From IMG/VR virus record IMGVR_UViG_3300037225_000059, positions 1 to 28,246 of that record: a stretch of DNA of 28,246 nucleotides, one strand, 5' to 3'. Shown here piece after piece: positions 14,562-24,977 of this stretch; position 1 is the first letter of the stretch, and each line of letters starts with the position of its first letter. This stretch comes from a virus. The notes under the pieces were generated by a model. That model searched no databases. It saw only the letters and a list, made by a program, of their open reading frames with translations, and had not been told where the DNA came from. The translations under genes were made by a program, and so were the position numbers.

Positions 14562-15290
14562 TTAAGCCTTTGCCGGTTCCCCGGTGTTCTTGAAGTCAGA
14601 AATGCTTGACCATGCGATAAAATCAGCCGCGCTGCTTGGGATGTCTCCTACCAGATGACCAACCCCACAGGAGCGATCTACATAGGCGGGAAATCCAACC
14701 GCGCGAGCGTTCTCAAAGAAGTTTCGATCTTCCCCGCCGCCATTGAGTTCGTTGTCGTATTTGAACCACGTATCTGCTACGCTCTCTCGCATTGATTCCA
14801 ATACCGACCGATGAATGAGGCAGCAAGATGTGGACGTAAAGTCAATTTCAGCCAGAGCGTCTTCCGGTCTTTGGTCTAACACATACGGTCCGAACCTCAC
14901 CGCGTCGTGTTCCATAATCCATTTGAAGGTGTCTTGTACCCGAATGGCGTAGGGCTGCTTGTGACTATCTCCGTAGCTATTCCATACGTGCGGTATAACC
15001 GGGGATTGACGCATAAAGACCAGGGCGCTTATAAGTGGCTTGTCCCAGGACAAAAGTCGTTCTAATGTTTGAGGAACAAAAATAATGTCGTGATGACACG
15101 AAAAAAGCCAATCGTTCTTACTGTCAAGAAAGTCCTTGACAACCTTATTCCAAAATATTTTTATATCGCCCGGTAAAGAGCGGGTGAAATCAAGCGAATC
15201 GCCCCATTGTCTTTGTAAATCCATCCATGACAGAACGCAGGGCCAGCGTGGAGCATCGCCGGAAGATGGAACCCATAAAGTGACCTTCAT
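14562..15290 (-). CDS. Glycosyltransferase-like protein, GT-A type (242 aa)
   Basis: ATG 15290 (weak ribosome binding site GTGAATGAGCG). The layout resembles GT-A transferases. After about 60 residues comes NDWLFSCHHDIIFVPQTLERLLSWDKPLISALVF (about 59-92), in which H-H-D-I would be the metal/nucleotide-sugar turn followed by the helix-strand seen after the DxD. A later EIDFTSTSCCLIHRSVLE segment and GGGEDRNFFENARAVGFPAYVDRSCGVGHL (about 185-214) match the acceptor-side E-D...A...G and final H of family-2-like enzymes. Lying between capsid and connector genes, it could glycosylate the virion or host polysaccharide using sugars made by the accessory block. Confidence 0.72.
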   Translation of the reverse strand: MKVTLWVPSSGDAPRWPCVLSWMDLQRQWGDSLDFTRSLPGDIKIFWNKVVKDFLDSKNDWLFSCHHDIIFVPQTLERLLSWDKPLISALVFMRQSPVIPHVWNSYGDSHKQPYAIRVQDTFKWIMEHDAVRFGPYVLDQRPEDALAEIDFTSTSCCLIHRSVLESMRESVADTWFKYDNELNGGGEDRNFFENARAVGFPAYVDRSCGVGHLVGDIPSSAADFIAWSSISDFKNTGEPAKA

Positions 15291-15787: not shown

Positions 15788-16996
15788 TTAACCCTCGACC
15801 ATGTAGTAGAACCCTTCGCCCTGGAGGACAGCGCCACCGCGGAAGATGTTAGCATAGATGTGCACAATGCCGTTGCCCATTTCCACGTAGGGGTTACGCT
15901 GGATCATCATGCCGGGTTTTTCAATGACAGCATACTGAGTCCAGTTGCCATAAACGACAGACTTGTTTCCGGTCGTGTCATTGGCGGGCATGTCATCACT
16001 GACAAAGGCGGGGTATCCGAAGAAGCCGGGTTCGCCAATCGTGCCACCGTAACCAGCATTCGGGCCGCCGACGGGGGTCGGGACAAATGCAAAGTAATTG
16101 GAGGTCAGGCCCTTGGCATACCATTTGCTTTTGTTCGCCATCAGGAAGCCAGTTTCGCCCATGACGTTGTAACCAGCGCCCAGGTAACCAATTAACTTGG
16201 AAAGGTCGCCAGCGACAAAGGCATGAGTAGCTGTTCCGGTCGGGCCAAGAGTTGCGCCGGTCAAAACGCCTTGCGCTTCGCCAGTTCCGGTACCGTTGGT
16301 GTACAGGGTATTCTCAGTCACACCTACGGCGCGCCCGAGGGCAGCGGTAAGCCAAGCGTCGAAGTTCGTGTCTTGATAAGTCAGGAACTCTTCGCTGATG
16401 GGAACATCCTTGGTGTACTTGAACAGCTGGATGTCTTTCTGTGCGACAGTCGGCTTGTTCTTGTTGTAAGCTGCGAGTTCGGCGGTCTTGACAAAAGCCG
16501 TGAACTTCGTATCTTCGACGGGGACAAGCAGGTGATCGCTGGGGGTGCTCAAGTGCTGGGCGGCAGTCTGGCGAATAAAACTCACCAGGTCGCGCTTGGC
16601 TTGAATGGTCTGGTACAAAGGATCAGGAACCAGATAAGCGCCATCAGCGCCGGAGTTCGACACGAAGGTTGAGCCCTTCATGTTGACCGGGAGGGATTTC
16701 ATCCAGAGTTCGTCTGGCTGAATTAGGCCTTCGTTCTTCTCGCCAGTGCCCATCCAGGACTTGAATGCCTGCACGCCATCGTTATCATCGCCGGTTTTCT
16801 TGGCGTCGGTGGTGTGATAGGACTGGCGGATCATGCCTTTATCTTGCAAGGCCTTGATTGCCTTTTTCTCAGCAGCGTCAGCGATTTCTTCGTCGTGCGC
16901 CTTTGCATCCGCTTCGATCTTGGCCGCCTTGGTGTCAGCGTCGCGCTGTTCTTTGAAAGCGGCTTCCAACATTGCCTTAACTTCATTTGATTCCAT
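15788..16996 (-). CDS. Major capsid protein from internal start (402 aa)
   Basis: Within the fusion frame, ATG 16996 (residue 304, MESNEVKAM) is preceded by AAAAGGAG (17013-17006) nine bases upstream, a much better ribosome binding site than that of the full ORF. Starting here gives 402 residues: a helical delta-like domain of about 100 residues and the HK97-fold domain. This is the normal size of HK97-type capsid proteins (HK97 gp5 is 385). The stoichiometric need for about 400 capsid subunits against few proteases argues for this second product. The feature is in frame and nested, so it is an alternative translation product, not a separate locus. Confidence 0.75.
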   Translation of the reverse strand: MESNEVKAMLEAAFKEQRDADTKAAKIEADAKAHDEEIADAAEKKAIKALQDKGMIRQSYHTTDAKKTGDDNDGVQAFKSWMGTGEKNEGLIQPDELWMKSLPVNMKGSTFVSNSGADGAYLVPDPLYQTIQAKRDLVSFIRQTAAQHLSTPSDHLLVPVEDTKFTAFVKTAELAAYNKNKPTVAQKDIQLFKYTKDVPISEEFLTYQDTNFDAWLTAALGRAVGVTENTLYTNGTGTGEAQGVLTGATLGPTGTATHAFVAGDLSKLIGYLGAGYNVMGETGFLMANKSKWYAKGLTSNYFAFVPTPVGGPNAGYGGTIGEPGFFGYPAFVSDDMPANDTTGNKSVVYGNWTQYAVIEKPGMMIQRNPYVEMGNGIVHIYANIFRGGAVLQGEGFYYMVEG

Positions 16997-17905
16997 AGTA
17001 TGTATCTCCTTTTGAGATTGAATAGGGTTTGCACTATCATCATCACCGTGGGCAACGCCGCCGGGTAAGGTGAGTAATGATTTCAGGGAAATAACTTGAT
17101 TACGTGGCTCGGCCGGGGAGGGAGTAAAACTTGCATCCGTTCCCAGCGGCCAGGTCTTGATAAAGAACTTTCCATCGCCGGCCGCTTCACGGTCAACGGT
17201 ATGACTGGCAGTACCAGACGACCAATCCATCTTTCCTGCGCGTACTTGACTTGCAATAAACCCCTCATACTCGTCGCGCAGGTCAAGCACAGTCTCAGCC
17301 CAAATGCCGAAGTCATCTTTCTTGAGCGAGACAGTATTGGAAAGCGCCTTCTTAAGCGCCGGCATTGTTTTTCCGTTGGTCAAGGCTGCCTTCTGTCTGT
17401 GATGGAACCATGCGATTGACTCGGTAGCGGGCCCGAAGTTGGTGTCTTTGGTGAAGAAGTCACCAGTCAAGTCAGGATCTGCGGCAGTTGAAAACCTAAC
17501 CAAGTACCCACCGACTTTCCCGCCATCCAATGACTTGACTTCTCCGCCTAAGTAAACTAATTCTTCATCAATGGTTTTTGCTTTAGCCAGACGTGAAAGA
17601 AAAACGGACTTAGTAACCGCGTCCCATGATTGTTTTCTAACAACCTCTATTTTTCCATCCCCGAACGAAACAACCCCATTTGAATCTGTTTTATAGGGAA
17701 CTTTATAATATTTTTGCCCCTCACAAATTACAACCATTCCTTCGTCTGGGAAAACGTCAACAATCCAGTTGTCTGATGGGGAATTTACTGCGTTGGTTGA
17801 TGGGTGGGACTCACCCCATGCTCTGTAAATAGAGTCTTGAATTTCATTTAGACCCATAGATTTCTTGCTTTTTGTCTTATACTCATCACGTTCAGGCATA
17901 TTCAC
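15788..17905 (-). CDS. Prohead protease - major capsid protein fusion (705 aa)
   Basis: Three parts are visible. Residues 1-100 are an N-terminal domain with VFPDEGMVVICEGQKYYKVPY. Residues 110-280 are an HK97-gp4-type serine protease with the His-containing AWFHHR (164-170), the Ser-containing MDWSSGTASH (226-235), and the VISLKSLL end. Residues 304-705 are a charged delta/scaffold-like helix (KAMLEAAFKEQ...EKKAIKALQ) followed by an HK97-fold capsid (GADGAYLVPDPLYQTIQ; VPISEEFL; GRAVGVTENTLYTNGTG; FGYPAFVSDDMP; QRNPYVEMGNGIVHIYA). The protease would remove the delta domain. The upstream ribosome binding site is GAGGTG. An internal start at 16996 probably makes capsid alone; see that entry. 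Confidence 0.9.
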   Translation of the reverse strand: MNMPERDEYKTKSKKSMGLNEIQDSIYRAWGESHPSTNAVNSPSDNWIVDVFPDEGMVVICEGQKYYKVPYKTDSNGVVSFGDGKIEVVRKQSWDAVTKSVFLSRLAKAKTIDEELVYLGGEVKSLDGGKVGGYLVRFSTAADPDLTGDFFTKDTNFGPATESIAWFHHRQKAALTNGKTMPALKKALSNTVSLKKDDFGIWAETVLDLRDEYEGFIASQVRAGKMDWSSGTASHTVDREAAGDGKFFIKTWPLGTDASFTPSPAEPRNQVISLKSLLTLPGGVAHGDDDSANPIQSQKEIHTMESNEVKAMLEAAFKEQRDADTKAAKIEADAKAHDEEIADAAEKKAIKALQDKGMIRQSYHTTDAKKTGDDNDGVQAFKSWMGTGEKNEGLIQPDELWMKSLPVNMKGSTFVSNSGADGAYLVPDPLYQTIQAKRDLVSFIRQTAAQHLSTPSDHLLVPVEDTKFTAFVKTAELAAYNKNKPTVAQKDIQLFKYTKDVPISEEFLTYQDTNFDAWLTAALGRAVGVTENTLYTNGTGTGEAQGVLTGATLGPTGTATHAFVAGDLSKLIGYLGAGYNVMGETGFLMANKSKWYAKGLTSNYFAFVPTPVGGPNAGYGGTIGEPGFFGYPAFVSDDMPANDTTGNKSVVYGNWTQYAVIEKPGMMIQRNPYVEMGNGIVHIYANIFRGGAVLQGEGFYYMVEG

Positions 17906-18056: not shown

Positions 18057-18566
18057 TCACAGAATTATATTTTCGTGTGACACTTCGCCTGGTGGACGCA
18101 TTGTTATTTTCGGCATTACTTCATCGTGAGGAACATTGACAATCCGAATATTGACTCCGAATGCAATACCAACTTTTTCTATATCCGGGAATGTCGCACC
18201 TTCGGATATTCTGCCGAACCATTTCATCTCTGAATTGTGGATACTCATGTACCCGCCATTCTCAATAACGATAAAGCGGATATTCAGATTCAACCGATGA
18301 ACGACTTCCAACTCCGCAATACACTGCATGAACGAGCCTTCGCCGTCCACGCAAACGATCCGCTTACCACTAGCCAGCGCACAGGCAATTGATACCGGAA
18401 TGGTCGCACCCATCGCGCCCTGTGCGTAATTGGAGTAAATCATCCGCGCCGCGCCGTGGTAATTATTAATAAAAACTTTCACAGCCGTTGTCGAACATCC
18501 GATTACGAGAATATCATCAGCAGTAAGCGATTGATTCAGTTCTTCGCAGAGGTCGTATGTATTCAT
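18057..18566 (-). CDS. TPP-dependent enzyme, pyrophosphate-binding (PP) subunit (169 aa)
   Basis: The product is a stand-alone C-terminal half of an acetolactate synthase/decarboxylase-type enzyme. It has NYAQGAMGATIPVSIACALA (46-65) and the pyrophosphate-Mg motif DGEGSF (74-79) followed by N103 in IENGGYMSIH. The motif is normally GDG-S; here the second position is Glu. The start overlaps the stop of the partner subunit by 4 bases. Two-subunit TPP enzymes of about 170+180 residues without the middle domain include sulfopyruvate and phosphonopyruvate decarboxylases. Beside RfbH and an SDR it more likely transfers a two-carbon unit to, or otherwise modifies, a keto sugar; the substrate is inference. 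Confidence 0.85.
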   Translation of the reverse strand: MNTYDLCEELNQSLTADDILVIGCSTTAVKVFINNYHGAARMIYSNYAQGAMGATIPVSIACALASGKRIVCVDGEGSFMQCIAELEVVHRLNLNIRFIVIENGGYMSIHNSEMKWFGRISEGATFPDIEKVGIAFGVNIRIVNVPHDEVMPKITMRPPGEVSHENIIL

Positions 18567-19093
18567 TCTAGCGCCTCTGCCTGTTGTATGTCAATGGGAA
18601 TATTTAACCAGCACGCGCCCTGTGGTTCTGCCAGGGCGAGTTTCCAAAGAATGTCTAACCAAACCTGTGCGCTATGGGCAGTCATTACGGTGACAACTTT
18701 CTTTGTGACCGCCTCCGCAATCCTGTCAATCTTTACATCCTGCTGCCCGCCCTGGCGCAGCTCTTCCTCTTCGCGCTTGACTATCAGGTCAGTCGCTATA
18801 TCCCCTGATATAACGAACATTGGAACATAATCCGAGAATGCCGAAGCCACGCCAGAGATCGCGTTCGTCTGTGCCAGGCCACTGGTCACGCATAGAACAC
18901 CCATCTGCCCGGTGCATAGCGCATGACCATAAGCCGCATAAGACGCGCCGGACTCGGTCAGCATGTAGGCGGGCTTCAAATCGGAGTGACCTATGCTATC
19001 GTTCAAGTGCTGGGAGAATCCGCCTTGTAGTGTGAACAGCGTTGTCACGCCGCGCCGGATAAGTTCTTGCACAATCCAATCAGAGACGCGCAT
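18563..19093 (-). CDS. TPP-dependent enzyme, pyrimidine-binding (PYR) subunit (176 aa)
   Basis: This is the N-terminal-type domain of acetolactate-synthase-like enzymes: TLFTLQGGFSQHL (18-30), then LTESGASYAAYGHA with E47, the conserved glutamate that activates the aminopyrimidine of TPP. CVTSGLAQTNAISGVASAFSDYVPMFVISG (about 68-97) is the family's second landmark. The protein ends where the middle (FAD or regulatory) domain of full-length enzymes would begin, so the enzyme is split with that domain absent. It overlaps the SDR gene by 14 bases and the PP subunit gene by 4. The two subunits must combine, since the active site lies between PYR and PP domains. Confidence 0.85.
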   Translation of the reverse strand: MRVSDWIVQELIRRGVTTLFTLQGGFSQHLNDSIGHSDLKPAYMLTESGASYAAYGHALCTGQMGVLCVTSGLAQTNAISGVASAFSDYVPMFVISGDIATDLIVKREEEELRQGGQQDVKIDRIAEAVTKKVVTVMTAHSAQVWLDILWKLALAEPQGACWLNIPIDIQQAEALE

Positions 19094-19805
19094 AAGCCAC
19101 CGTTCTTTCTATCGCTTCCATGATACCGACTGTCTCCTTGCACCCCAGTTCCAGTGCCCGCGTCACATCGGGCATATAAATGCGCGGCTTGCCGGTTTCC
19201 TGCGGAAGGTCTTCCACTGCCTCACATCCGCATACCTGCGCAACCATCTGCGCTATATCGCTCATCTTGAACGCCAACGAAGCACCCACGTCATAGAATG
19301 CGCCGCTCTTGCCATCCAATAGGATACGCCAAAGCCAATTCCCCATATCCGCGCCGTACATGTAACTACGAATGCATCCGGCATCATAATAATGCACCGG
19401 TCCGCCTTTGACGCCTTCCCGGATAAACTGCATTATCGAATAGGTATCTTGCAGGCACTCTCCCACGAAGCAGAACGGGCGAACGGTCACCACGTCTACG
19501 CCGCTATCGGCACATTCCCGTTCCCATTTGCGCTTGTTGTCGCTGTATTCGTCATGCCGGTCGTAGACTGCTCCGGACGAAGCGAACAGGACGCGAGTGC
19601 TATGCTTCTGCGCGTACGCAAGCACGCGGGTGGGGGAGACGGGGGCGAGGTGAACGATGGCGTCCCAAGCCTCCTCGAGATACCAAGACTGATTATAGGC
19701 AGAACGATTCAGCCACAATACCTTACATTCTGGCGGCTGGGTTTGTTCCATCCAGTGCGCAATGAATCCCGATCCTCCCGTGCATAACACTTTTTTTGTT
19801 GTCAT
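19080..19805 (-). CDS. NAD(P)-dependent sugar epimerase/dehydratase/reductase, extended SDR family (241 aa)
   Basis: The N-terminus has the Rossmann nucleotide motif CTGGSGFIA (8-16). The catalytic set is SSGAVY (76-81) and Y87-x-x-x-K91. RPFCFVGECLQD and YMYGADMGNWLWRIL are the extended-SDR substrate-side segments. At 241 residues it is shorter than the usual 300-330, with deletions in the N-terminal domain. Such enzymes act on nucleotide-activated sugars as 4-reductases, epimerases or dehydratases. The context (RfbH, TPP pair) suggests reduction of a CDP-keto-deoxysugar. ATG 19805 has AAAGGAA. The HNH promoter on the other strand overlaps this start. Confidence 0.85.
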   Translation of the reverse strand: MTTKKVLCTGGSGFIAHWMEQTQPPECKVLWLNRSAYNQSWYLEEAWDAIVHLAPVSPTRVLAYAQKHSTRVLFASSGAVYDRHDEYSDNKRKWERECADSGVDVVTVRPFCFVGECLQDTYSIMQFIREGVKGGPVHYYDAGCIRSYMYGADMGNWLWRILLDGKSGAFYDVGASLAFKMSDIAQMVAQVCGCEAVEDLPQETGKPRIYMPDVTRALELGCKETVGIMEAIERTVAYARL

Positions 19806-19827
19806 ATTTCCTTTCTAGTGATATAAT
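19799..19827 (+). promoter_or_regulatory. Sigma70-type promoter for the HNH gene
   Basis: On the plus strand TTGTCA (19799-19804) is separated by exactly 17 bases from TATAAT (19822-19827), which also has an upstream TG (19819-19820), making an extended -10. Transcription would begin near 19834, just before AGGAG (19836-19840) and the ATG at 19848. This is the strongest promoter match I found in the window. It runs against the surrounding late genes. Confidence 0.8.
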
Positions 19828-19847
19828 GTATTCATAGGAGATAAACA

Positions 19848-20369
19848 ATGAGAAACAAAAATGGAACTTTTGCAAGAACGCTTCAAATCTGGACGCTCGA
19901 CAATTGGGACAATGGATATATGGACAATCGGGGCAGGTTTAGGGTTTATCGCCCAGACTACCCGAGAGCGTATAAGGGTGGTTTTGCTCTTCGCGCCCAT
20001 GTGGTGTATTGGCTCGTAACCGGACAACCACACCCAGCGGGAACAGAACTTCATCACAAGAATAGAATAAAATCCGACGACCGCTTTGTAAATCTTATTG
20101 TTCTTACGCATTCCGAACACCAGATTGACCATAAGGCGAATTGGGTTATTGTAACATGTGCCCATTGCGGAAAACAATTTCGGGAACATGCCTGGAGGGT
20201 TGCTGAAAGAAACGTCCGTTTCTGTTCTCAAAACTGCTATCGCATTCATCCACGCTCTCCAGAACATAAAGCCAATATTTCTGCTGGAATAAAACTTGCC
20301 TATAAAGAGGGGAGGCGGTTGCCGAACGGGCCTCACTTAAAGAAATTGCGTATGGTCTCCACGCTGTAA
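19848..20369 (+). CDS. HNH homing endonuclease (173 aa), antisense in the accessory block
   Basis: The protein carries the HNH nuclease core ELHHKNRIKSDDRFVNLIVLTHSEHQIDH (about residues 67-95), with the paired histidines before a N-x-x-L-x-x-L helix. A C-terminal CAHCGKQF...RFCSQNCY zinc finger (about 104-127) follows, then a NUMOD3-like DNA-recognition segment (SPEHKANISAGIKLAYKEG). This is the usual build of free-standing phage homing endonucleases, which cut a recipient genome so that their own gene is copied in. It lies opposite to its neighbours with its own promoter and AGGAG, and its last 37 bases overlap the 3' end of the rfbH-like gene. Confidence 0.9.
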   Translation: MRNKNGTFARTLQIWTLDNWDNGYMDNRGRFRVYRPDYPRAYKGGFALRAHVVYWLVTGQPHPAGTELHHKNRIKSDDRFVNLIVLTHSEHQIDHKANWVIVTCAHCGKQFREHAWRVAERNVRFCSQNCYRIHPRSPEHKANISAGIKLAYKEGRRLPNGPHLKKLRMVSTL

Positions 20370-21496
20370 TCCAGCATCTCGGTAGTCAGTCCGGGCCAAC
20401 ATCCAACCCAGATGACGTGTTCATAAGCATAATTGGCATTCTTCAACTCCCCCACGGCGCGGCAGTCAATGTTCTTGTATGCTGAATGCCGCAGGATGTT
20501 TCCTCCGAACAGCGGGCGATTGCCAACGCCATGCGCGTCCAGATAGCGTGCCAGTTCGTTTCTATCCTCCGTTCCGAATGCGAAGCCGAACCAGGAAGGG
20601 CGGCTGTTGGGTGATACTACTGGCAGTACTATCGGCAAATCTTTCAGCCAAACATACAAATATTGCCAGTTCTCGTGCCTTGCTTTCACAAACTCATCCA
20701 GCCGCTTGATCTGCTCACAACCTAGCGCCGCTTGTAAATCAGTGGCTTTCAAGTTCCACCCAATGCGGGAATAGGTGTAACGATGGTCATACTCACCATC
20801 GAAGCGTTTTCCACAGGTGTTATCGCGCCCGCCTTCACACCAGCAATCCCGGCCCCAATCCCGGTATGACTGTGCTATCTTGGCGAGGCGCGGGTCATCG
20901 GTAAGCAATGCTCCGCCTTCGCCGGTCGTGATCTGGTGGGCAGGGTAGAATGAATAGGTTGAGAAGTCACCCCATGAACCAACGGGCTTACCGTCAAAGG
21001 CGGCGCCTGCGCTATCGCACGAATCTTCTATCAGGCGTAACCCGCGCCTTTTACAGAACGCGTCTATCGAAGTCATTTCACACGGATTGCCCAACGTATG
21101 CGTGATAATCATTGCCTTCGCCGTGAGTGGAGTTGCTTCCAGCTTGCTTGTGTCAATATTCCACGTCCCCGGCTCGCAGTCTACGAACACGGGCACGAGT
21201 CCAAGCTGAATTATTGGGTTAACGGTGGTTGGGAATGCACAGGCGGAGGTGATGACCTCACTCCCCCTCGGAAGTTCCAGCGAGGCCAGCGCCAAAAGAT
21301 TGGCAGATGAACCTGAGTTTACGAATAAGGCATTACGTCTGCCGAAGCGTGTTTGTAGTGCTTGCTCGAATTTATGAGTAAGCGGCCCCGCTGTTAACCA
21401 ATGCAAATCTACTGCGTCGTGCAACGCTTGCCAGTCCTCGTCTTCTATGACTGAACCATGAACGGGCACCGGGGTTACGCCGGGGATAAATTCCAT
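20333..21496 (-). CDS. rfbH: RfbH-type CDP-4-keto-6-deoxy-D-glucose 3-dehydrase (E1, PMP/[2Fe-2S])
   Basis: The DegT/AHBA aminotransferase fold is clear: WLTAGPLTHKFE, SGSSANLLAL (61-70), HTLGNP (133-138), LIEDSCDSAG (155-164), SFYPAHQITTGEGGA (182-196). At the position of the PLP lysine stands H187, and a C-x-C-x7-C set (C218, C220, C228 in DCWCEGGRDNTCGKRF) matches the iron-sulfur ligands of E1. Together these distinguish RfbH/AscC from aminotransferases. The enzyme removes the C3 hydroxyl of CDP-4-keto-6-deoxyglucose. It has 387 residues versus about 437 usually; the N-terminal arm of about 35 residues is missing. The reductase E3, cytidylyltransferase and 4,6-dehydratase are not in the window. 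The start overlaps the ferritin gene stop (TAATG). Confidence 0.9.
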   Translation of the reverse strand: MEFIPGVTPVPVHGSVIEDEDWQALHDAVDLHWLTAGPLTHKFEQALQTRFGRRNALFVNSGSSANLLALASLELPRGSEVITSACAFPTTVNPIIQLGLVPVFVDCEPGTWNIDTSKLEATPLTAKAMIITHTLGNPCEMTSIDAFCKRRGLRLIEDSCDSAGAAFDGKPVGSWGDFSTYSFYPAHQITTGEGGALLTDDPRLAKIAQSYRDWGRDCWCEGGRDNTCGKRFDGEYDHRYTYSRIGWNLKATDLQAALGCEQIKRLDEFVKARHENWQYLYVWLKDLPIVLPVVSPNSRPSWFGFAFGTEDRNELARYLDAHGVGNRPLFGGNILRHSAYKNIDCRAVGELKNANYAYEHVIWVGCWPGLTTEMLDYSVETIRNFFK

Positions 21497-21969
21497 TATC
21501 CCCCTGCTGCTTTCTCCGCATACTCGCGGTCCAGAACAAGCAACCCGTCCGGTCCAACGCGCTTGAGTTCCAACAACGCGTCGATTAATTCCCTCTCGCT
21601 GCTAGTCTGCTCTGCAATTGTCCATGAATACAAGAAGTCTGCTGACTGCCCGTCACTCTCCGCAAGCAGGTCAAGGATGCTGGCAGTATTGGCGCGTTCC
21701 AAGTCCAGCGCAGCCTGGAAGAACGGAATCGGGTCGTTGCCATCCAGGTGCGCGGGTTCATCCAGTGCGGTACATACCGGAGTCTGATTCCGAGAAATCA
21801 GATAGTCCGCAAACTTGCCGGAATGAATCAACTCATCCGCAGCCGCCTTGCGCATCCATGCCGCGAAGCCCGGCCAGTTCGCGCTTTCAAGTGATTGCGC
21901 GAAGTCGTAATACTGCGCCTGATTTTGTCTTTCCTTATTTTGTTGTGCTTGCCATTTTATAAAGTCCAT
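21496..21969 (-). CDS. Ferritin-fold protein with altered ferroxidase site (157 aa)
   Basis: The length and helix pattern match bacterial ferritin (about 165 residues). Retained elements are E46-x-x-H49 in DELIHSGKFADYL (helix B), LDEPAHLD, E91 in ALDLERANTASIL (helix C), and DFLYSWTIAEQTSSERELIDALLELKRVGPDGLLVLDREY (helix D-E). By eye against E. coli FtnA, the helix-A iron ligand E17 falls on Ala18, and the third-site glutamates after EQ are Ser-Ser. The N-terminal helix is Gln/Asn-rich. So the cage may form but iron oxidation may be weakened. ATG 21969 has AAGGAG. It is translationally coupled to rfbH. Confidence 0.8.
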   Translation of the reverse strand: MDFIKWQAQQNKERQNQAQYYDFAQSLESANWPGFAAWMRKAAADELIHSGKFADYLISRNQTPVCTALDEPAHLDGNDPIPFFQAALDLERANTASILDLLAESDGQSADFLYSWTIAEQTSSERELIDALLELKRVGPDGLLVLDREYAEKAAGG

Positions 21970-22200: not shown

Positions 22201-22875
22201 TTATTGCGTAAATTGATTACCGTCAGAATCAAACCAGCCGTGCTCACAATGCCACCCTCCACAAACGAAGTTAGTATTTCCTTGGTATGGAAACAAGTCT
22301 CGTGCTATCACTTCCAAAGCCGGCAACGTAGTGCCCTTCAGCCCCTGGCAAGATTCGCAGCTTTCCATGCCGTCGTCTCCACCGAAAGTAAGCAGTTTGT
22401 TCTTGGCTCCGTATAACTTTCCCATCGAATAAACGTCACCCAGGGTGGATGTGTATCCGCCCGACCTGTCCGAGATCCACGAACCAATGTCAACGGGCGG
22501 GTCGATCGCCATCTGTTCCTTGAGTGTGCGAAACAAGTCAAGGATGTTCTGCCGTTCCTGGTCTTGCCTGTCTCCCAACCAAATGCTGGCCGCCTGCGCT
22601 ACGTTGTCAGGATCTCCCCCGCCATCCGCAATGCCTGCATCGAACGCATCCATGAAACTATTCGCCATCGACTGGATGAAGTCATTGCGCGCTTCCACCA
22701 TGCCCATGCTTCCATCTGCGTAGTTGTGCAACGCTTCCATCAGCATACCGCTGTAATCTGCCGATACGGAACTAATGCCCAAGTCCTTCAGGTTAGCAAG
22801 AAGGTCTTGAGGAATGGGGACACGCTGCAAACGCAGATGTAGAAGAGCGGAGCGGAGGGCAGGAAGGTCAGTCAT
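22201..22875 (-). CDS. Minor head protein, MuF/gp7-like (224 aa)
   Basis: ATG 22875 is chosen because it overlaps the stop of the small basic ORF upstream (ATGA); an in-frame extension to 22935 is likely not used. The C-terminal half has the MuF-style cysteine arrangement: ESCESCQGLKG, then FVCGGWHCEHGW at the end, which would form a zinc-stapled hairpin. The N-terminal part is helical, with GDRQDQERQNILDLF. MuF-like proteins sit at the portal and are packaged in small numbers, sometimes ejected with DNA. Position after the portal fits. No toxin domain is present at the C-terminus, unlike some MuF fusions. Confidence 0.75.
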   Translation of the reverse strand: MTDLPALRSALLHLRLQRVPIPQDLLANLKDLGISSVSADYSGMLMEALHNYADGSMGMVEARNDFIQSMANSFMDAFDAGIADGGGDPDNVAQAASIWLGDRQDQERQNILDLFRTLKEQMAIDPPVDIGSWISDRSGGYTSTLGDVYSMGKLYGAKNKLLTFGGDDGMESCESCQGLKGTTLPALEVIARDLFPYQGNTNFVCGGWHCEHGWFDSDGNQFTQ

Positions 22876-23003
22876 CGCTTTGTCACCAGTTTCCATGCAA
22901 CCCAAAGGCGGGTGCGGAACGGTTGACGAAACCACACAGTCAGAGTTGACGAAATCCGGCGGCGCTCCAACTGGCGTAGTTTCTTGGCTTCGCGTTGGTT
23001 CAT
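22872..23003 (-). CDS. Small basic protein (43 aa)
   Basis: A short ORF linked on both sides by 4-base ATGA overlaps (23000-23003 with the gene before, 22872-22875 with the minor head protein), with GAGGGAAGA as ribosome binding site. The product starts NQREAKKLRQLERRR, continues with Trp/Arg/Lys-rich FRQPFRTRLWVAWKLVTKR, and has about one third positive residues. Such size and charge could suit nucleic-acid or portal binding, or membrane association. The coupling, not homology, is what supports it as a gene. Confidence 0.6.
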   Translation of the reverse strand: MNQREAKKLRQLERRRISSTLTVWFRQPFRTRLWVAWKLVTKR

Positions 23004-23312: not shown

Positions 23313-24977
23313 CTAACTCACTTTCTGCGCTTTCAACAGCGCCATTGTTTCTATCCGCATCGCCTCCACGAGGGACGCGGTATCACTCTTGGTACTAACA
23401 TCGAACGCCTTGATTATATCCGATTCGTTCTTGGCTTCAGCCAACTTCAGACGAACGGGGGCGGCGTATTCTTCCGGCAATGCCTTACATTCAAAGTCAA
23501 CCGCCGTTGTACCCTTCTTGCGGAAACAACGAACCGCAATATCCTTCCACAATGCTAGATCTTTTATCATGTCAGCGTCCAGTGAAATTGACTTGCCGAA
23601 CGCTGCGGGTGCTTCCGGTCTATCTGCTGGAGGCTGGACTGCATTTTGTAGTGGTGCGATGGGCTTGTCCTTGTTCTTCAACTCGACATCGAACATCTCG
23701 TCCAGGTCTTTGTAGTTTGCGCCCTCTGGTAAATCCAAGCCCAGCATGCCTCCGGCAATGGACGGTCTCATTCCTGCAGAAACATACATGCGATAAGCCG
23801 CGCCGCGCTTGGTCTCGTCCTCTTGGAACGCCTTCAGGGTCTCAGGTTTAAACTGCATCCGTAATCCCCAGCGCGAGAATAACTGAGAGTTTAGCGTACT
23901 TTGAATAGTGTTGTAAATCTTGACAAATATTCCATTCTCCAGCCACTGTCGGATCATTGGGGAGACCTCAGAAGCGAAGGCCATGTCAGACATAAATATA
24001 GCTGACGGGATACCAAAGGCTGCGCCGATACTTTCTTTCTGTTCTGAAATCAAGTCCTTATACGCACCTGCACCCATGTCCTTCAATCCAGCCCCTACCT
24101 GGTGAATCTCCATTTTGTCGGAGTTGATTAATTTAGCTACATACTTCGTGAACCCACGAATAAAGCTATTCCAGGTCGCCTCTGCCTTATCACGTTCCCC
24201 TTGTGCAATGTTCCCGCTTACTCCCAACAGAGTCGGGGGGATAAATCCACGATCTGCTAAAAGGTCAATGGATAGATCAGCCTTGCTCAATATCTTGGTA
24301 GCCAATAGAGCGGTAGCCATCGGGTAGTTCTTAGCGGGTCCGATTTCAATGTCGCTATCGGGTAACCAGAAATACAGCATCTCGCCACGGAAGTGACCAC
24401 CGGTTACTTTGACTGGCGCGCCATTGGCAGTATATACTTCGTTGCTATCAATTGGAGTTGCCGCAGTTCCGTCGTACTCATCACCCGCCCCGAAGCCCAA
24501 CCCAGCCGGCGCATAGATCCCGGCCTGCCCCCAATCCGCAGTTCGGGGAAACATGCTCAAGCCTTGCGTGGTAATCAACGGAACTACAGTATGCGGCGCA
24601 CAGTATTGCAGATTAAGCAGACTCTTTCCCATTGTGATGGGGATGACGTAAGCCTTGCCCATGCACAGAGACTCGGCGATCAATCCGATGATTCGGGAAG
24701 GATCTGCCATCCCGCCTATTTTATTCTTCCACTTGGTTGACTCGTCGTAGACTTCATCGTTTTCGTCAAGTATATTGAATGGAAGGTTGGACACGCGCGT
24801 CGCCGTCATGTCACAGGCTTTTGCTATCCAGGGCACTACCCTGCGAAGCAAAGAGGGTATCTGCGTACCGCCGCCCCCGGTTGATGTTGCCATGAGGAAG
24901 TTATCGAATCCACCCCACGCGGTGTAATCAATTTCCTTTAATTCAAATTGGTCAGATTTATAGATTGATTTCGACAT
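23313..24977 (-). CDS. Portal protein, HK97 type (554 aa)
   Basis: The portal forms the dodecameric DNA gate at one capsid vertex. The HK97/SPP1 portal look is clear. There is a wing/clip region with LRRVVPWIAKACDMTATRVSNLPFNI (about 44-69), then GKAYVIP (107-113). The stem/crown follows in FGIPSAIFM (about 322-330) and EDETKRGAAYRMYVSAGMRPSIAGGMLGLDLPEG (about 387-420), the tell-tale end. The C-terminal about 100 residues are an extra helical extension. AGGAGC precedes the ATG. It is between the terminase and minor head genes, as usual. Confidence 0.9.
   Translation of the reverse strand: MSKSIYKSDQFELKEIDYTAWGGFDNFLMATSTGGGGTQIPSLLRRVVPWIAKACDMTATRVSNLPFNILDENDEVYDESTKWKNKIGGMADPSRIIGLIAESLCMGKAYVIPITMGKSLLNLQYCAPHTVVPLITTQGLSMFPRTADWGQAGIYAPAGLGFGAGDEYDGTAATPIDSNEVYTANGAPVKVTGGHFRGEMLYFWLPDSDIEIGPAKNYPMATALLATKILSKADLSIDLLADRGFIPPTLLGVSGNIAQGERDKAEATWNSFIRGFTKYVAKLINSDKMEIHQVGAGLKDMGAGAYKDLISEQKESIGAAFGIPSAIFMSDMAFASEVSPMIRQWLENGIFVKIYNTIQSTLNSQLFSRWGLRMQFKPETLKAFQEDETKRGAAYRMYVSAGMRPSIAGGMLGLDLPEGANYKDLDEMFDVELKNKDKPIAPLQNAVQPPADRPEAPAAFGKSISLDADMIKDLALWKDIAVRCFRKKGTTAVDFECKALPEEYAAPVRLKLAEAKNESDIIKAFDVSTKSDTASLVEAMRIETMALLKAQKVS

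Follow-up and report, generated by a model that had tools for sequence, protein, structure and literature searches.

A cassette among phage head genes that may make a branched CDP-deoxysugar with a derived two-subunit YerE-like carboligase

An uncultivated-virus record of 28,246 bases (IMG/VR IMGVR_UViG_3300037225_000059, the whole of which is referred to here as the window and whose outermost reading frames seem to be cut at both ends) carries, among its head genes, a cassette encoding an RfbH-type dehydratase, a short-chain dehydrogenase/reductase (SDR), and a thiamine diphosphate (ThDP) enzyme whose PYR and PP subunits are separate. The interpretation that we favor, at somewhat better than even chances, is that this cassette makes a branched CDP-deoxysugar by means of a derived two-subunit YerE-like carboligase. 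RfbH would strip the 3-hydroxyl group from CDP-4-keto-6-deoxyglucose, the carboligase would decarboxylate an alpha-keto acid and attach its acyl group at the 4-keto carbon, and the SDR would then reduce or epimerize the branched product, which a glycosyltransferase would use on the virion or the host surface. The carboligase would be a two-subunit enzyme, probably alpha2beta2, whose fused PYR-M-PP ancestor split and lost the FAD-binding M domain, with PYR and PP rebuilding the ThDP site between them and presumably working without FAD. In yersiniose synthesis, an RfbH-type E1 makes CDP-4-keto-3,6-dideoxyglucose, YerE adds a two-carbon unit at C4, and an SDR reduces the product. By analogy with YerE, the donor may be pyruvate; alternatively, the presence of NeuB genes nearby in bacteria and in the virus locus that holds the sister PYR and PP pair (L002; related loci are given L numbers) points to a possible longer keto acid.

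Matches to TPP_enzyme_N and TPP_enzyme_C, both above the Pfam cut-offs, fall on two genes (Table 1), as expected from a preliminary description of the window that had proposed separate PYR and PP subunits and no middle FAD-type domain. PYR keeps the conserved Glu47, and PP carries ENGG at position 102, with Asn103 and Gly105 retained; the motif at positions 75 to 77 reads GEG, not GDG. The M domain (PF00205, TPP_enzyme_M) was detected nowhere in the 28-kb record, nor in the L002 or L197 records; Pfam scans of relatives found it in fused and split forms. When a profile of six fused relatives was scored against solved structures, the YerE-like carboligase JanthE (8rph) ranked first with 528 bits (next structure, 403 bits), and JanthE was also the best Foldseek match in the PDB for the AlphaFold model of the window PP (mean predicted local distance difference test score [pLDDT], 75). 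This model also matched the two-chain enzymes AzcBC and RhiEF, which lack M, and single PP or PYR sequences taken alone ranked acetolactate synthases or BbmA first. The gene context, with RfbH and the SDR upstream, likewise fits a YerE-like lyase. The YerE-type assignment made at the outset was thus right in kind, the window enzyme being a derived relative of YerE-like lyases and not a standard single-chain PYR-M-PP member.

YerE-like lyases, which include YerE of Yersinia pseudotuberculosis, ErwE, and JanthE, occur with RfbH and SDR; in the known members, an acyl unit is attached either to ketones or to a CDP-dideoxysugar at its 4-keto carbon. The characterized members cited here are bacterial, whereas the window pair is phage borne; YerE consists of one flavoprotein and JanthE of a PYR-M-PP chain that has FAD, whereas the window encodes two chains and no M. 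In JanthE, too, the motif is not GDG but CDG (PMC12247030). In having PYR and PP on separate chains without an M (TH3) domain, the window pair is like ComDE, RhiEF (9iz3/9iz4), and AzcBC (9u8q), and the existence of such enzymes is established for RhiEF and ComDE (PMC12141560).

The two-chain form of the window enzyme is derived. Among 79 bacterial loci, the enzyme is one protein of about 600 amino acids (aa) in the order PYR-M-PP, fused in 75 and clearly split in none. A lone candidate bacterial split (L130) has PYR and M+PP in overlapping frames and resembles a frameshift, and the nonfused L113, L117, and L136 start at a contig end. Another split locus, L104, bears the title Peptococcaceae but is phage-like, having TerL and minor head genes. 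Viral enzymes are fused or, with a slash marking a gene boundary, arranged as PYR/M+PP, PYR+M/PP, PYR/M/PP, or PYR/PP. Within this sample, fission and loss of the middle third are confined to viruses. A 62-row PYR+PP tree with Escherichia coli IlvI, IlvB, and Gcl as its root grouped the window with L002 (support, 100/100), and these then with the split L003 (99/94), the fused L068 and L070 (99/95), and the fused L066 (100/100). The M-less window and L002 are thus nested, with strong support, among fused relatives, so that both the fission and the loss of M are derived. The M-less pair of L197 stood apart, grouped with three-piece and PYR+M/PP viruses at 99/99, so that on these trees M was lost at least twice, independently. 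An unrooted tree with more rows (156) agreed. ComDE, which has other substrates, is regarded as ancestral in its two-chain form, and the superfamily is proposed to have passed from a ComDE-like two-chain form to fusion and the gain of an extra domain (PMC12141560). The phage pair came to the two-chain form secondarily, out of a fused ancestor, the reverse of that course.

Both subunits are under constraint. Over the aligned domains, the window and L002 are 61% identical, and at codon-aligned sites PP is 71% and PYR 57% identical. The ratio of nonsynonymous to synonymous differences per site (pN/pS) between them is 0.25 for PP and 0.39 for PYR, with pS at saturation. Because of these ratios and the 4-nucleotide (nt) PYR/PP overlap common to both viruses, function of the pair is favored, and the constraint argues against decay.

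RfbH scored 478 bits against the curated NCBIfam RfbH equivalog (cut-off, 423) and 295 bits against DegT/DnrJ/EryC1, above the Pfam cut-off, with PDB matches to 3bcx/3bb8 at E values of about 1e-100; its nearest relative is the RfbH of L003 (71% identity). His187, Cys218, Cys220, and Cys228, singled out in the preliminary description, are all present and, together with Cys160, a fourth cysteine ligand that was not listed there, line up with their counterparts in Yersinia E1 (3bcx), which we take to be the four iron-sulfur cysteines and the catalytic histidine that replaces the pyridoxal phosphate lysine. The SDR carries TGGSGFIA, SSGAVY, and YSDNK (YxxxK), and its Epimerase match passes the Pfam cut-off, in keeping with the extended type. 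The enzymes upstream of RfbH had been expected to come from the host; since some related viruses encode RfbF- and RfbG-like enzymes, host supply is not required. One such virus (L014/G006) has RfbF and RfbG, both over their cut-offs, together with an SDR, a fused ThDP enzyme, and RfbH. Judging by titles and abstracts, RfbH has already appeared in lists of viral auxiliary metabolic genes.

All four cassette genes lie on the minus strand at the positions first reported (Table 1). Of the overlaps or near overlaps described for them, those between SDR and PYR (14 nt) and between PYR and PP (4 nt, ATGA) are real, but RfbH and SDR are not adjacent: a 527-nt gap between them is filled by an HNH_3 endonuclease gene, missed earlier, which runs antisense to the cluster and overlaps the 3' end of RfbH by 37 nt. 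This gene has its own ribosome-binding-like AGGAG. In L003, RfbH and SDR overlap with no HNH gene between them. The placement of the cluster amid head genes holds for the capsid gene, as well as for the portal and TerL genes, but the "minor head" label of one flanking protein is unproven, as it had no match in Pfam or PHROGs. Neighbors outside the Pfam scans got their names from single-protein homology (phmmer) or from reading of the sequence.

Table 1. Features of the cassette and its surroundings in the window
Feature	Position	Strand	Basis or remark
RfbH-type CDP-4-keto-6-deoxyglucose 3-dehydratase (E1), 387 aa	20333-21496	-	NCBIfam NF011936; PDB 3bcx/3bb8
HNH_3 endonuclease gene, 173 aa	19848-20369	+	PF13392, 33.9 bits; PHROG HNH families
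Extended-type NDP-sugar SDR, 241 aa	19080-19805	-	PF01370, 29.1 bits; PHROG nucleotide-sugar epimerase
PYR subunit of YerE-like ThDP enzyme, 176 aa	18563-19093	-	PF02776, 84.8 bits
PP (ThDP-diphosphate/Mg binding) subunit, 169 aa	18057-18566	-	PF02775, 71.3 bits
Major capsid protein with upstream extension	15788-17905	-	PF05065, 99.5 bits; phrog_10; directly downstream of cassette
Conserved protein, 242 aa, predicted GT-A glycosyltransferase fold	14562-15290	-	AlphaFold model
Ferritin-like protein	21496-21969	-	PF00210, 56.7 bits
Head-region protein (earlier "minor head")	22201-22935	-	Homologue in L005; family unrecognized by Pfam/PHROGs
Portal	23313-24977		Pfam/PHROG scans; TerL gene likewise confirmed

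The combination of RfbH, SDR, and ThDP enzyme, whose recurrence had been proposed as a check, recurs in both viruses and bacteria, the bacterial ThDP enzyme being fused. RfbH relatives were found in 62 uncultivated-virus loci, most of which hold a relative of the window ThDP enzyme; in many, an SDR and a ThDP enzyme adjoin RfbH, and several lie amid head genes. A PP-based search independent of RfbH returned 73 loci from viruses and 80 from bacteria, the latter being the best 80 matches. IMG/VR virus records are fragments, virus calls may hold errors, and the locus tallies include some overlapping or near-identical contigs. Where a virus locus had over 6 kb of DNA upstream, RfbH was in view in 15 of 16 with split genes and in 19 of 31 with fused ones. 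A homologue of minor head, capsid, portal, or terminase genes was in view in 25 of 27 split and 3 of 40 fused virus loci, as detected with structural queries drawn from the window and its relatives, which underdetect other phage types. RfbH was in view in 38 of the 79 bacterial loci, any of RfbF, RfbG, and RfbH in 45, and a NeuB homologue in 63. Thus, neither sulfopyruvate-type relatives nor association with another pathway in most genomes, either of which would have spoken against the YerE-type assignment, was what we saw. RfbH-like genes are present, mostly in cyanophages, among 50,697 annotated phage records, in which ThDP matches were only to distant acetolactate synthase-like genes. Among the matches listed, these were about 30% identical or less to the fused enzyme of L070 and up to 38% identical to the window PYR, and several of the records resemble host DNA. 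The capsid relatives L005 and L010 have ThDP enzymes of a different clade, and the head genes of L003 are, by these searches, largely unlike those of the window; the sugar cassette seems to pass from one type of phage to another.

Several observations weigh against the proposed pathway. The Mg2+-ligand motif is GEG in both the window and L002, and the C terminus of the window PP is shortened, either of which could reduce or alter activity. YerE is a flavoprotein (PMC4753412), and JanthE binds FAD, with two FAD-contacting residues that matter for activity (PMC12188165). M might in principle be encoded beyond the sequenced fragment. The E3-type NAD-binding reductase domain (PF00175) was absent from the window and from 38 other virus records; the host may supply this reductase. 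Finally, L002, an 8-kb fragment and the sole other member of the M-less clade, adjoins NeuC and NeuB with no RfbH visible. The absence of M, the short C terminus, and the GEG motif, along with the existence of broken copies elsewhere (for example, L064), would also suit a pair that is a decaying or inactive remnant left after M loss. We consider this improbable, as the frames and the overlap are intact in two viruses as divergent as the window and L002, pN/pS is low with pS saturated, Glu47, Asn103, and Gly105 are kept, and a second, independent M-less pair exists in L197. That the pair instead works only with an M domain that is encoded by the host or in unsequenced phage DNA and acts in trans is quite doubtful: the record is a fragment, and some relatives have three pieces, with M as a free gene (L042, L162, and L170), but these viruses place M between PYR and PP, where the window and L002 have the 4-nt overlap, and the 37-kb L197 also has no M.

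The acceptor or donor may also differ from the yersiniose model within the same family, with a NeuB-like synthase and a HAD phosphatase providing a long alpha-keto acid, as in caryophyllose- or erwiniose-like chemistry, or with a substrate of the nonulosonic acid type. This is unlikely, although by no means far-fetched, and it would make the yersiniose analogy fail in detail. In 52 of the 79 bacterial loci, a NeuB homologue precedes the ThDP gene by no more than 2.5 kb, with a HAD phosphatase between them in the two loci read; NeuC and NeuB follow the sister pair in L002, NeuB shares the locus with the fused enzymes of L066, L068, and L070, and ErwE favors 4-hydroxy-2-oxo acids over pyruvate (PMC12247030). 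In bacterial L073 (5494 to 8675) and L088 (5369 to 8675), a NeuB-like synthase, a small HAD phosphatase, and a YerE-like ThDP enzyme are consecutive, beside RfbF, RfbG, and RfbH, and this row may yield a keto-sugar acid donor. These clusters, which also include an SDR, have the same enzyme set, presumably for surface polysaccharide synthesis, but their ThDP enzyme is fused and surrounding head genes were not recognized. The window record, on the other hand, is without NeuB, and L003 and the capsid relatives L005, L009, and L010 have RfbH and SDR with no NeuB in view. Descent outside the YerE line, as a two-subunit decarboxylase of the ComDE/RhiEF type acting on sulfopyruvate or phosphonopyruvate, is very improbable. 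The two-chain architecture without M is shared, and PP scored 32 bits on the sulfopyruvate beta model (TIGR03846), but this is far below the cut-off of 221.5, the tree nests the pair within fused YerE-like proteins, and coenzyme M or phosphonate genes were not recognized in the window.

In the branched-sugar pathway that we favor, a candidate user of the product is the 242-aa protein encoded just past the capsid gene. It had no Pfam match, and its AlphaFold model (mean pLDDT, 67) gave PDB matches dominated by glycosyltransferases (E about 1e-6), so a GT-A fold is predicted with modest confidence. Its relatives occur in 15 virus loci at 46 to 60% identity, with a capsid homologue in view in most. 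Because the predicted glycosyltransferase lies just past the capsid gene and its relatives are mostly near a capsid homologue, capsid decoration is a plausible destination, modification of the host surface being the alternative. Glycosylation of virions is known in mycobacteriophages (as referenced in PMC11256854). In L221, the 242-aa protein is present as two tandem copies.

YerE-like enzymes are valued for making chiral tertiary alcohols, and a 2025 review places viruses among the places with unexplored YerE-like orthologues (PMC12247030). The new point here is the gene architecture of the phage ThDP enzyme, a variant on known YerE-like chemistry. The phage series from fused, through three split kinds, to M-less amounts to natural constructs that probe the role of the FAD domain and the idea of a minimal ThDP ligase. 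A broader proposition, which we put forward only tentatively and hold to be possible rather than probable, is that phages repeatedly dismantled a three-domain YerE-like ThDP carboligase, twice independently reaching a working, ancestral-like two-subunit form without the FAD (TH3) domain, and that phage glycosyltransferases decorate the capsid with its sugar. If the M-less form does work, the role of the FAD domain in the superfamily would be directly testable in a natural deletion series. The cassette and the candidate glycosyltransferase near the capsid gene suggest that uncultivated phages may make exotic nucleotide sugars during virion assembly.

Fission of phage enzymes has precedents in proteins that were split by homing endonucleases and stay active (Aeh1 NrdA, T4 topoisomerase, and phage 25 gp43; PMC2988022), the chains of which probably coassemble. 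GIY-YIG-like endonuclease open reading frames (ORFs) lie exactly at the PYR/M+PP junction in L005 (5579 to 6565) and L029 (335 to 1006), which is the likeness to those systems; unlike in them, fission here recurs at varied domain borders within one family and is followed by domain loss. The window has no endonuclease gene between PYR and PP; its HNH gene is nearby but away from the split. An intron at the split is unsupported, as Rfam found none in the window, L002, L003, L005, or L197.

Other loci add to this picture of variable arrangement. Three-gene enzymes (PYR, M, and PP) occur in L042 (7404 to 9012), L162 (3 to 2271), and L170 (3163 to 4728), with small unrelated ORFs between the pieces in L162. 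The M-less pair of L197 (9483 to 10612) is just upstream of a portal gene and a capsid protein related to that of the window, with no RfbH within the 20 kb examined around the locus. L064 (8200 to 10815) has RfbH and a ThDP gene in several broken pieces, representing a decayed copy or sequence errors. L232 (678 to 2537), which belongs to a phage related to that of the window, has a fused ThDP enzyme gene directly upstream of the capsid gene. L155 and L156 belong to one 44-kb contig (IMGVR_UViG_3300042876_000083) with ThDP genes near both ends, perhaps reflecting terminal redundancy. Radical-SAM proteins recur in phage sugar cassettes (L002, 2340 to 6331; L005, 1869 to 2918; and L042, 3826 to 4740), as do NeuC and NeuB in the case of L002. 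In the window, a ferritin-like gene precedes RfbH, its stop codon overlapping the RfbH start by 1 base, and it has relatives in L009 and L010.

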